This document shows positions 4,989 to 64,000 of a DNA stretch of 64,000 nt, piece by piece. Both the position numbers and the translations under genes were made by a program. This DNA comes from Amphiura filiformis (taxonomy: Eukaryota > Echinodermata > Ophiuroidea > Amphilepidida > Amphiuridae). The DNA lies in assembly GCF_039555335.1 (NCBI RefSeq), contig NC_092635.1, positions 70,282,058 through 70,346,057 on the forward strand, in the 5' to 3' direction. How positions within the stretch are numbered: position 1 is the first letter of the stretch; each line of letters opens with the position of its first letter. The notes under the pieces were generated by a model. It did not search any database. It was given only the letters and a program-made list of their open reading frames with translations, and had not been told where the DNA came from.

Positions 4989-5589
4989 TATTCCCTTTGC
5001 AATAAGAACCATATTTGATATGACCATGCCAAGGGTCAATAGCCTACAATTAATTACCATCTGAATGATAGAAATGAACAAGAAATTGATACAAAAATAG
5101 TAATGTTTTTTGGGTTTTTTTCAAACTGTGCAAAATGACTGAATGAATCTTTACATTACATAGACTTATATGACTGGTAAATTTCACTGCCTGTTTACTG
5201 TAAATAACAAAATCTCCTAAATCGTAAGCAAAATCCCTATAAAAAAATTTGCATTATCGTCCAAGAGGTATTGTTTTGAGCGAGGTCGGATAGTATACAG
5301 TTGAAGTCACGTGCGTATTACCCCAGGAGTACATTCCGATAAAAGCAATTTGGCATATTTAATTTATCAGTATAATAGCATGTTGGATAGTAAACACCAA
5401 GTGGATCTTTTACAAGAAAAGATACGTCATCCGCCTTTTGTGTTGATGATACTACCAATTTACACCAAGTCACAAGTATATTCTTGGTTTGAAATGAATT
5501 TGGTAATTAAGGGCTCGAACATCCATCTTTGCAAAGTATTTTTTGTGGGACCTAAAATTTCTAGGTCTTTAATGAAACTTCATGTATAT

Positions 5590-5850
5590 CTTCAATACAA
5601 AAGGTCAAAATTTTCCTATCATGGTCAGGTTTCCTCCCAGCTACATACACTTTAAGTACACATTTTGTTTACTTCGAGAACGGTTAAATTGCAAAAATGT
5701 CAACTTTAAATAAATTTGCATTTGTATAATATCGCAAATGTCAAAAAACTTTAAAAAAATGTCAAAAGGACATTCCTCGTATTCAGAATGCAATTTAGTG
5801 TCTGACGTGCTCTCAGGTTCCACAAAAAATACTGTGCAATGTTTTTGACA
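5590..5850. repeat. Partial arm of the piggyBac-like MITE
   Basis: This stretch carries CTACATACACTTTAAG, then TTTACTTCGAGAACGGTT, GTATTCAGAATGCAATT, and GTGCTCTCA..TTCCACAAAAAATACTG in the same order as the right arm of the 43079-43743 element. The last part of the terminus and the matching left arm are poorly preserved. It is an old, truncated copy. Confidence 0.65.
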
Positions 5851-7215: not shown

Positions 7216-7271
7216 GCCTGGGTCAATATTACAGCAGAACACTTGCAAAAACTTTATTTAATTTTGTCCCA

Positions 7272-7443
7272 CAGGCTATTGCAGTTGAAATCCACACAAC
7301 TCCTATGGAAGACCTAACCTTAATGTCAATTTTAAATGGAGTCGCCCATTCAGGTAACCCCATTTGAAATTCACACTCCCTGTGTGGACGATTAAGGGCA
7401 TATCTTCTACTAAGGGTGTATGGATTTCAACTGGAACAGCCCC
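7272..7443. repeat. Foldback MITE family A
   Basis: Starts GGCTATTGCAGTTGAAATCC and ends GGATTTCAACTGGAACAGCCC, with internal CACACTCCCTGTGTGG. The layout is the same as the other family A copies: long imperfect inverted arms around a short centre. Confidence 0.85.
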
Positions 7444-7560
7444 ATGCAACCTATTTTAAATGGTTGCATTTGTATTGACTGAAAAGGAAAAACACTGCAT
7501 CTTGGGATATTTAACAAAGGCACTTTTAATATCGACTGCTCAGTGTCAGAAGTGGGTAAG

Positions 7561-8037: not shown

Positions 8038-9006
8038 CAGATTCATTCCTAATAGGATTGTGACACGACCTGTAGCATCAGAATACATTGAAAGAAATTT
8101 ATACCTGAAATGTTTGATGCTGGTCAGATAAAGTACTCAGCTAGGAGACGTGAGGAACCGACTGTACTGGAATTCCCCAGTTTTAATCATGTAAGTTGAG
8201 CACATAAAAAGAATTAGGAGTCACTATTCAATGGTAATCTAATAACACAACAGCTAAAATGCATAAACTATTAATAATCTACGACTCTCACCTTCCTCCA
8301 CTCCAAAAAAATTGAAAGAGGATGAGAAAAGGTCTGTTTTTGTTCCAAATAGCTGTACCTCATGATGTACACTGGGGGGACAGACAAGGGCACATCATTC
8401 ATTACACAGAAAAATAGTTAAATAGATAGCAAGTTCACTTCTAAAGCCATATACACATACTAGTAATAGAAATAAAACAGAAATGACACTTTTATCTGAA
8501 GAGATTGTACAAATTCATATAATTTTTTTCAATTGGATATTTTTATAGTGCCATTCATAACAATTGTATATTATATTGATAAATCTCATTTTTCAAATTG
8601 TGATTTTCTTTCAAGATGGAAAGAAATCATAGAAAAAAGTACATGTACAACACCTTAAAAAATAACATTTTTTTATATGTTAAAAACACCCTGTTCTGTG
8701 CACAATCATTAAAAGAAACAATAATACTTGGTTGGACGAAACATAAGTTAAGTGCATCACAACTCCTGATACAAATTTTTGGCCATACATACATTGAATT
8801 AGCCAATACATAATTATACATTCAACAACCTCTTCTGCATGGTAGCCAACTACGTTTAAATGTAATAAATTAATAATTAAAATCTTCACTACGCAACTCT
8901 AAATCGCAACCCATAAAACAACCAAAATAACAACAAACTTCACATGACGGAAGTCATGCAAGGATTGAAATGAAATTGAACAGAATGGTTCCGTGCATAA
9001 AAACGG
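8038..9006. other. Non-coding, nothing recognised
   Basis: Overlapping short frames on both strands at 8616-8889 have no family resemblance and low complexity. No exon signals were recognised. Confidence 0.4.
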
Positions 9007-9191
9007 GTTATTGCAGTTGATATCCAAACACGCCTCTATGGAATATACAACCTTAATCTGCCACACAGGGAGTGTAATTTTCAAATGGGACAACCTGATT
9101 GGGTGGCTCCATTTGTAATCTACACCCCATATATGGGCGATTAAAGTCATGTCTTCCATACAGGGTGTATGGATTTCAATTGGAATAGCTC
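9007..9191. repeat. Foldback MITE family A
   Basis: Contains CAGTTGATATCCAAACACGCC, the internal CCACACAGGGAGTGTAATTT and the right end GTGTATGGATTTCAATTGGA. A moderately diverged full-length copy. Confidence 0.85.
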
Positions 9192-9250
9192 GATGGTTCC
9201 GTGCATAAAAATGGGCTGCATATATGACCAACACACAAATGTGTCAAGAT

Positions 9251-10277: not shown

Positions 10278-57102
<46,825 letters not shown>

Positions 57103-61357: not shown

Positions 61358-61577
61358 CTATAGTTTGTTCGGCTTATAATTGGCGTAAATTATTCGGTTT
61401 TTGTTACTGCGCGCGTCAGTAAAGTTCCAACATACGCATGTTTAAATTCACATTAGCGTGTGCCAGTCACACATTACGCAACTAGCATACATGTAAGCGC
61501 TGCGCCCAACTGCCATTCTGTATCAATACACAATGTTATGATTTTTTTTTGCCAATTATAAGCCGAACAAACTATAG
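61358..61577. repeat. 220-bp MITE with 27-bp terminal inverted repeats
   Basis: CTATAGTTTGTTCGGCTTATAATTGGC and GCCAATTATAAGCCGAACAAACTATAG are perfect complements. The interior is CpG-rich (TTACTGCGCGCGTCAG, ACATTACGCAAC). No coding capacity. Confidence 0.92.
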
Positions 61578-61892
61578 CACCCATTAGTTTTATAGGGGTC
61601 TATCTTTCTTTTCCTCACAAAATCACAAGAGAACAAAAATGGGGTTACAGAACATGTGGGAACAGTCTAACTAGGGCAAATTTTTCCATCCTTAAAGGTC
61701 ATGCCTTCAAGTTGTCATGATGTCAGCATTATTGATCCCTGTAAAGCCTTCAACTGTGAGTTCTGATGTAATGCATGGCAAGGTGAATGTTGTGAACTGG
61801 AGGCTATACTCATTATCACCACAATATTCCCTGTTTAAAAAAATCCTTCAGGGAGATCAAACAAAATTTGGCACATAACATGTCGTTTTGCT

Positions 61893-62785
61893 GGCGAGTA
61901 CCCGCTAGTCCGAAGGACCGCTAGTCCGAAGGTTTGCTAGTCCGAAGGTTCGCTAGTCCGAACACGTATTTCAATGGAGGACGTGAGGGTCGCTAGTCCG
62001 AATTCGCAAAAAGGTTCGCTAGTCCGAAAAAAAGGTTCGCTAGTCCGAAGGTTCGCTAGTCCGAAGGTTCGCTAGTCCTAAGGTTCGCTAGTCCGAATTT
62101 ATTAAAAGGTTCGCTAGTCCGAATTGTTAATCAGGTTCGCTAATCCGAATCAAAAAAAGGTGCTCTAGTCCGAATTTTAAATAAGGTCCGCTAGTCCGAA
62201 TTTTATATAAGGTTCGCTAGTCCGAATGATAAATAAGACCCGCTAGTCCGAATTCTATAAATAAGGTCCGCTAGTCCGAATTTTCTTTAAAGAACCTGAG
62301 CAGCGCTACCATACACCGGTCTCAAAATGTATTGGAGGTGTTTGATCAAATATAGCGCGTTACCTGAGTAGGTGCACACAGGTTCACAACATTGTTCATG
62401 TTTTGCAAGGTTTCTTTAAAGGTAATGATGGCAAGTACATAAAAGTATACATTTTCAGAAAGGAAACAATGCAAGTAACCCAATAAGTTTCCAAATCGAT
62501 GAAAACTGTATATTTATGTTCTAAAGACACAAAAAGTATACAGATGCTGTTTTGTTTTTTCCTAAAGTATTTGAATATTTATTCCTTTTAAAAATTACTG
62601 ATGTAGGTTTTGTAGAATGAATGAAATTGCAATCAAATATACACCATCGCCTCAATAGTAATGGATATAATTCAAGACAACAACGAGAGCTAGGCCTATT
62701 ATGAATGTCTAAAATACAAACTTTTCTATTTATTTTATTTCTTCATTGATTACTTTCTCTATAAATCCTTCTTCCTTTAATATAT

Positions 62786-62829
<44 letters not shown>

Positions 62830-62831
62830 TT

Positions 62832-62911
<80 letters not shown>

Positions 62912-62913
62912 TT

Positions 62914-62953
<40 letters not shown>

Positions 62954-63255
62954 AAATTCGGACTAGCGGACCTTATTTAAAATTCGGACTAGCTTAACCC
63001 TAAATCAAATTCAATTAGCGGACATGATTTTTAATTCGGACTAGCGAACCTTATATATAATTCGGACTAGCGAGCCTTATTTAAAATTCGGACTAGCGAA
63101 CCTTGTTAAAAATTCGGACTAGCGGACCTTATTTAGAATTCGGAATAGAGAACCTTCGGACTAGCGGACCTTCGGACTAGCGAACCTTCGGACTAGCGAA
63201 CCTTCGGACTAGCGAACCTTCGGACTGGCGGGCCTTAGGACTAGCGGGCTGTAAC
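61893..63255. mobile_element. Foldback element with mirrored arrays of a 16-bp unit (CRISPR look-alike)
   Basis: Left arm 61901-62290: about 17 copies of GGTTCGCTAGTCCGAA. Right arm 62954-63250: about 14 copies of the complement TTCGGACTAGCGAACC. In both arms the outer units are head-to-tail at 16-bp period and the inner units are separated by AT-rich spacers of about 10-12 bp (e.g. TTTTAAATAA). CGTTTTGCT occurs at 61884-61892 and 63256-63264, a candidate 9-bp target-site duplication. The 660-bp centre includes a (TTTC)n run and no recognised gene. The layout resembles Drosophila FB/Galileo-type foldback transposons. No cas genes; eukaryotic context. Confidence 0.8.
62786..62954. repeat. (TTTC)n microsatellite
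   Basis: About 40 tetranucleotide units with two interruptions (TTTTTC). It abuts the right arm of the foldback element directly, so it may have grown from that arm's inner end. Its open frame (FLSF repeats) is meaningless. Confidence 0.97.
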
Positions 63256-64000
63256 CGTTTTGCTTGCCCTACTCTCACCACTGCTTTGTAAACAAATTAG
63301 ATGGCTCTACGCCAGATGGATTTGACCAACTGGTGAATGCACCCTCTCTACAAACATAACATTGCTGCAGTTGCATGGAATACTCAACATCCACATTACA
63401 AGACGGTTACTATTACGTTTCAACTCCCATATGATGAAATTTCATTCTTCAAAATGTTCACGCTACCTTTAGTTTTGTTGACATGTCAACACCAACACTT
63501 ACGGCTATGTCTGTGAAAATCATGCGTCATCAAAGCACATGAGAATCTACCAAATGTTGTTACTTTGAACTATTTCCATTTCCACAAAAGCTGTGACATA
63601 TGATGAAATAATTTTGACATGAAATCTCTTGTACTTTATTGTCAAAAATCAATCAGATAAGTTATCAAAGATCAGCCATTATGCATTATACTTAGGCCTA
63701 AAAAATTGTATTGCCCTAGAGCTCCAAAGTCAGGGTCGGTCACCCGGTTTTGGGGTTTTTTTACCACATAAAATATCAAGAAATGCAAGTTTACCACAAA
63801 ATACCATGGAAAACATGATTTATATGGTTTCTTAATAGGCTTGTTGTTTTAAATGTATCAGAGTTGTGCAGTACGAATTACAAAACAGGCAAAACATTTT
63901 CACAACATTTGTGTTTTACATACCAAATATGAAAAAAATAATAATAATAATAAACACGCCCACCCATTGGATTTTAGGGTTGGTCAAAAAGGGCAAAACA
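63256..64000. other. Non-coding, no feature recognised
   Basis: AT-rich sequence with a short (AAT)n run near 63937-63952. The 68-codon plus frame at 63629-63835 has no similarity recognised. No PHD-type exon seen. Confidence 0.4.

Follow-up and report, generated by a model that had tools for sequence, protein, structure and literature searches.

A foldback element with arms of tandem 16-bp units in the brittle star Amphiura filiformis, probably a non-autonomous Mutator-like transposon

The 64,000-nucleotide stretch of Amphiura filiformis DNA analysed here (contig NC_092635.1, positions 70,282,058 to 70,346,057; hereafter the window, whose own numbering is used throughout) carries at 61893-63255 an element of 1,363 bp in which two inverted arms, both built from the unit GGTTCGCTAGTCCGAA, surround a middle segment. 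This is probably a non-autonomous foldback DNA transposon dependent on a Mutator-like (Phantom/Muta) transposase, for which the arms would be arrays of binding sites. The left arm has 17 units, with starts at 61899-62265, and the right arm 14 inverted ones (62957-63250), which bears out the estimate, in an earlier note on this DNA, of about 17 copies facing about 14. The count allows up to 7 differences, degenerate units included; an eighteenth match on the left (61885, 7 differences) was excluded because it overlaps the direct repeat described below, and the unit at 63024 on the right, also with 7 differences, was retained because it is in register with the array. At 3 mismatches or fewer, the whole window holds 28 matches to GGTTCGCTAGTCCGAA, all within the element; shuffled sequences gave 0.12 on average and never more than 2, and a scan of the window outside the element gave a single match with 4 mismatches, at 33062.

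The same note had described the arms as mirror images, each with an outer zone of abutting units and an inner zone of spaced ones. This is true without qualification for the right arm, which is clean: reading from its outer end, 7 units at a 16-bp period (63139-63250, minus strand) are followed by 7 units at a 26-bp period with AT-rich spacers of 10 bp (62957-63138, minus strand), two of these inner units being degenerate (7 and 3 differences). The left arm, on the other hand, is interrupted. Its outermost block of 4 units at a 16-bp period (61899-61962, plus strand) gives way to a 24-bp interruption (61963-61986), then at 61987-62097 (plus strand) to a unit, a 10-bp spacer, another unit, a 5-bp spacer and 4 more units at a 16-bp period, and finally to an inner zone of 7 units, spaced by 9-12 bp of AT-rich sequence, for a period of about 26 bp (62098-62280, plus strand). 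The arms are 392 bp (left) and 301 bp (right) long. The spacers, short and rich in AT, mostly represent variants of a single 10-mer, and 13 of the 17 non-zero ones measure exactly 10 bp; compared with the outer zones, unit spacing in the inner zones is thus greater by about one helical turn.

At either end the element is bounded by the exact 9-bp direct repeat CGTTTTGCT, at 61884-61892 on the left and 63256-63264 on the right (plus strand in both cases). The pair, known from this one locus, is a candidate target-site duplication, as the earlier note had suggested: with 16-base windows at both array ends, 14 of 20,000 random window pairs shared an exact word of at least 9 bases, and with 25-base windows 14 of 5,000. 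The left array ends 6 bases and the right array 5 bases before the direct repeats, and the inverted repeat excludes the duplications. The bases that intervene, GGCGAG on the left (61893-61898, plus strand) and, read inward, GTTAC on the right (63251-63255, minus strand), are dissimilar, so that the element has non-inverted ends outside its inverted arrays.

Variation among the units is clustered. Across 30 of the 31 units (the degenerate unit 63024 being left out), there are 33 departures from the consensus; columns 1-4 hold 24 of these and columns 5-16 the other 9, a 4 + 12 split that was chosen after the counts. When the split is placed after the first five columns it takes in 26 of the 33 departures, a value reached in none of 20,000 simulations, with the proviso that this split too was set after the units had been seen and that the simulation takes tandem copies as independent, which they are not. 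From the column pattern, the unit would appear to consist of a conserved 12-bp core, CGCTAGTCCGAA, and a variable 4-bp linker, a combination that predicts a footprint. The two CpG sites of the unit are kept in 27 and 28 of the 31 units, in a window that is depleted of CpG (observed/expected 0.515), and this retention fits, without proving, a fairly young or unmethylated element. Compared between the arms, the inner 26-mers agree at 20.2 of 26 positions, much as they do within each arm (20.3 and 18.9); this fits one homogenised pool.

A fold predicted for the complete element brings the arms together, 250 of the 392 left-arm bases being paired with the right arm (a figure without a shuffle control). 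Folded alone, the left arm has a z score of +2.47, with all 100 shuffles at least as stable, and therefore the partial palindrome of the unit is no hairpin-forming feature there. A hairpin-forming unit is thus not supported by this fold: the quasi-palindrome remarked on in the earlier note is present in part, but it has no visible effect on the folding of the left arm alone.

The arms enclose a separate segment of 0.68 kb (62281-62956) without recognised coding capacity, which includes a TTTC microsatellite at 62785-62953. For bases 62285-62784, a second match in the window was not found. A captured gene or transposase in the middle segment was considered and rejected after a scan of five open reading frames (ORFs), in which a match to RPN6_C_helix (E 0.047) lay below that family's cut-off and was taken as chance; six other ORFs of at least 38 amino acids in this segment are microsatellite. 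There were no Rfam matches at the gathering score, and no tRNAs were found.

With ends open to recognition by a transposase, no recognised gene in the middle and a short candidate target duplication, the element has the build of a non-autonomous cut-and-paste transposon, and how it would work can be outlined as follows. A Mutator-like (Phantom/Muta) transposase supplied from elsewhere would move it by cut-and-paste, staggering the target cut by 9 bp and so producing a 9-bp duplication. Each arm would be an array of sites for that transposase, every site comprising the 12-bp core and its 4-bp variable linker. In the inner zone, AT-rich spacers of 10 bp would add about one helical turn and would therefore keep successive sites on the same face of the DNA; equally, the 26-bp monomer may just have been amplified as a whole, and the relevance of helical spacing is putative. 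Slippage, together with unequal exchange or conversion, may have varied the copy number and homogenised both arms together. Mobility and binding are inferred, since no transposase was found in the scanned ORFs.

Published accounts of comparable elements supply close parallels. The structure is that of the foldback class, with long inverted ends of short tandem repeats around a middle, and the 9-bp duplication, at its one locus, falls within the 8-11 bp range of Mutator-like elements, or MULEs (PMC6446971). Among the long-TIR (terminal inverted repeat) Muta families of Aedes, 10 of 12 have tandem repeats of 9-15 bp and duplications of 8-9 bp (PMC5225508). Muta1 of Aedes aegypti, put in the type-2 foldback class by its authors, shows a terminal motif of 10 bp, then 9 copies of a 12-bp repeat set 3-4 bp apart, and its duplications measure 8-9 bp; Muta5 of the same mosquito carries 9 copies of a 15-bp repeat, the terminal motifs of the two measure 8-10 bp, and both have non-autonomous derivatives, which in the case of Muta1 vary in their middles and repeat numbers (PMC5225508). 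A 12-bp core with a 4-bp linker, as proposed for the present unit, is comparable with 12-bp repeats lying 3-4 bp apart. The likeness to Muta1 and Muta5 is drawn from their architecture as described, and there are differences: their arms are 145-151 bp long, whereas those of the present element are longer, and, unlike them, it has a second zone at 26 bp, differing outermost bases and no transposase seen. Tm1 of Meloidogyne, a Phantom-type Mutator foldback, has asymmetric, non-inverted 7-bp ends and arms with varying numbers of 13-15 bp repeats; 45 of its 53 complete elements are flanked by duplications of 8-10 bp, for the most part of 9 bp, and gene-less copies occur, one of them of 1,080 bp (PMC3169594). 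Short non-inverted ends followed by inverted arrays are thus common to Tm1 and the present element, in which GGCGAG and GTTAC take the place of the terminal motifs; no significant match to Tm1's repeat motif C was found here, and the two spacing zones set our element apart from Tm1.

Several results weigh against assignment to the Mutator superfamily or against transposition as such. Outermost bases that differ over 5-6 positions would be unusual among most cut-and-paste elements. No transposase, with a MULE-type DDE domain or otherwise, was found among the 17 ORFs scanned of the 34 in the window with at least 110 amino acids, nor in the five scanned in the middle segment, and one copy of the element is seen, with none elsewhere in the window. 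Comparison of the Tm1 repeat with the present unit gave no significant similarity, 784 of 5,000 shuffled units scoring as high, so that kinship with Tm1 by repeat sequence is not supported. Alignment of the seven inner 26-mers of one arm with those of the other gives 23.25 of 26 at the best offset, with a permutation P of 0.076, and so does not support a fixed register. What speaks for the superfamily is the length of the duplication and the architecture, and in Drosophila foldback ends of this general kind go with a P-type transposase in Galileo (PMC3688188). On balance the element appears to work like a Mutator-type foldback, and membership of the superfamily is likely, if unproven.

Galileo leads directly to the alternative that the same architecture was reached independently on the P/hAT side, with a transposase of P or hAT type, for which the statement of the Tm1 authors that foldback ends accompany different transposases leaves room (PMC3169594). 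Galileo and Tetris of Drosophila share with the present element long inverted ends with internal tandem repeats (PMC3688188, PMC4079207), and they too have gene-less or broken copies, the arms of Tetris being structured in flanking, outer and inner domains and its repeats much longer, at about 220 bp (PMC4079207). The THAP domain of the Galileo transposase binds near the end of the element, and further sites were identified, from the bound sequence, in the tandem repeats of its TIRs (PMC3688188). We nevertheless consider this origin unlikely, in that short units of 12-16 bp and non-inverted ends are better matched by Muta and Tm1, and the duplication is 9 bp here, against 7-8 bp as a rule for P and hAT types. 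The Galileo/P superfamily has a duplication of 7 bp.

Somewhat less probable again is an origin without transposition, in which a local minisatellite was duplicated in inverted orientation by hairpin-capped repair or template switching, the 9-bp repeat being coincidental or made by the repair. A single known copy, the presence of several other minisatellites in the window, and arms unequal in length and layout would all sit well with this; the exact 9-bp repeat that adjoins both ends, at the chance frequency of 14 in 20,000 given above, and the separate segment between the arms do not. The regular order of repeat and spacer might also bring to mind a CRISPR (clustered regularly interspaced short palindromic repeats) locus or some other prokaryotic repeat-spacer array. 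That idea is scarcely credible, and we regard it as ruled out by an animal gene context (MOZ_SAS, E 4.9e-54) and by the likeness of the spacers, which are short and AT-rich variants, for the most part, of one 10-mer and not unique sequences; the arms, furthermore, are inverted.

Among these explanations, a foldback element with a 9-bp duplication is still the best reading of the locus, as the earlier note had it; the distinctiveness claimed there for the unit and its two-zone layout is weaker, given Muta and Tm1. The element type is already well described, and its only unusual trait is the mixture of 16-bp and 26-bp pitches. In sea urchins, the TU elements have arms with outer and inner domains, tandem repeats of about 15 bp, variable middles and a duplication of 8 bp. 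Foldback elements of sea urchins are cited in PMC4079207. The unit strings were absent from the open-licence literature searched. Exact matches in viral contigs amounted to 2 stretches with a single match, none having two cores at a 16-bp pitch. In prokaryotic genome contigs at least 119 stretches have the exact 14-base core; among the matches listed, 118 are single-core and one has two cores, in opposite orientation. The isolated matches in viral and genome contigs are taken as chance, and the family may already be catalogued elsewhere, for example in libraries of eukaryotic transposons. There is a small chance that the element belongs to an undescribed animal foldback family with binding sites at pitches of 16 and 26 bp, which differ by one turn and are helically equivalent. 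If so, close-packed outer zones and spaced inner zones could load transposase in two modes, and the two-pitch zones could set the size of the synaptic complex.

With regard to genomic setting, the window is animal nuclear DNA, as shown by a MYST acetyltransferase exon (31142-31501, minus strand) with a match to the MOZ/SAS acetyltransferase family. ORFs at 10278-14243 (glutamine-rich) and 55164-56291 look like parts of what we take to be the same KAT6-type gene. The foldback element lies upstream of the 55164-56291 exon, and is probably inserted in or near this KAT6/MOZ-type gene, perhaps in an intron. The intronic placement is putative, since no convincing PHD-finger exon turned up in the window: the full motif, sought in six frames, had one match only, at 13643 and on the other strand; half-motif searches of the minus strand returned matches here and there, five of them at 56.6-63.9 kb, none convincing by eye; and ORFs of at least 38 amino acids at 56-64 kb, inspected by eye, included no convincing candidate. 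The ORF at 10278-14243 has 1321 open codons and is rich in repeats, among them several tandem repeats of 21-27 bp, all with unit lengths divisible by three. In the left flank of the foldback element there is a perfect 27-nt inverted repeat (61358-61384 and 61551-61577).

The window holds other repeats as well. A partly palindromic repeat of about 185 bp, dispersed over the window and resembling a miniature inverted-repeat transposable element, occurs in about seven places (7271-7446, 9001-9197, 21108-21242, 34764-34958, 36674-36856, 47666-47859 and 49981-50180), with CCATACACCCCCTATGGAAGACAT at 36.7 kb. Inverted-repeat elements at 46106-47293 and 31838-32521 have arms of about 170 and 215 bp with identities of 95% and 89%, and no self-matches of at least 60 bases were listed between either of them and the foldback element. 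A palindromic element at 43100-43713 has a diverged relative at 5586-5839 (71-74% identity), and at 37666-37809 lies a perfect hairpin of 62 nt, its loop 20 nt long, that is possibly very young or an effect of assembly. A minisatellite at 18577-19929 comprises 15 copies of a 90-bp unit with 96% matches; its frames are open on both strands, the unit being a multiple of three. The ORF at 35462-36097, which resembles the end of a reverse transcriptase of a long interspersed nuclear element, had only DUF6451 as a Pfam match, below that family's cut-off.

In Drosophila, foldback elements have been linked to chromosomal inversions (PMC2775673) and to the origin of satellite DNA (PMC4079207). The Amphiura element adds to this class a well-delimited example of arms built from repeats, and its natural contrast between 16-bp and 26-bp pitches could be used to test whether the helical phase of transposase sites matters.
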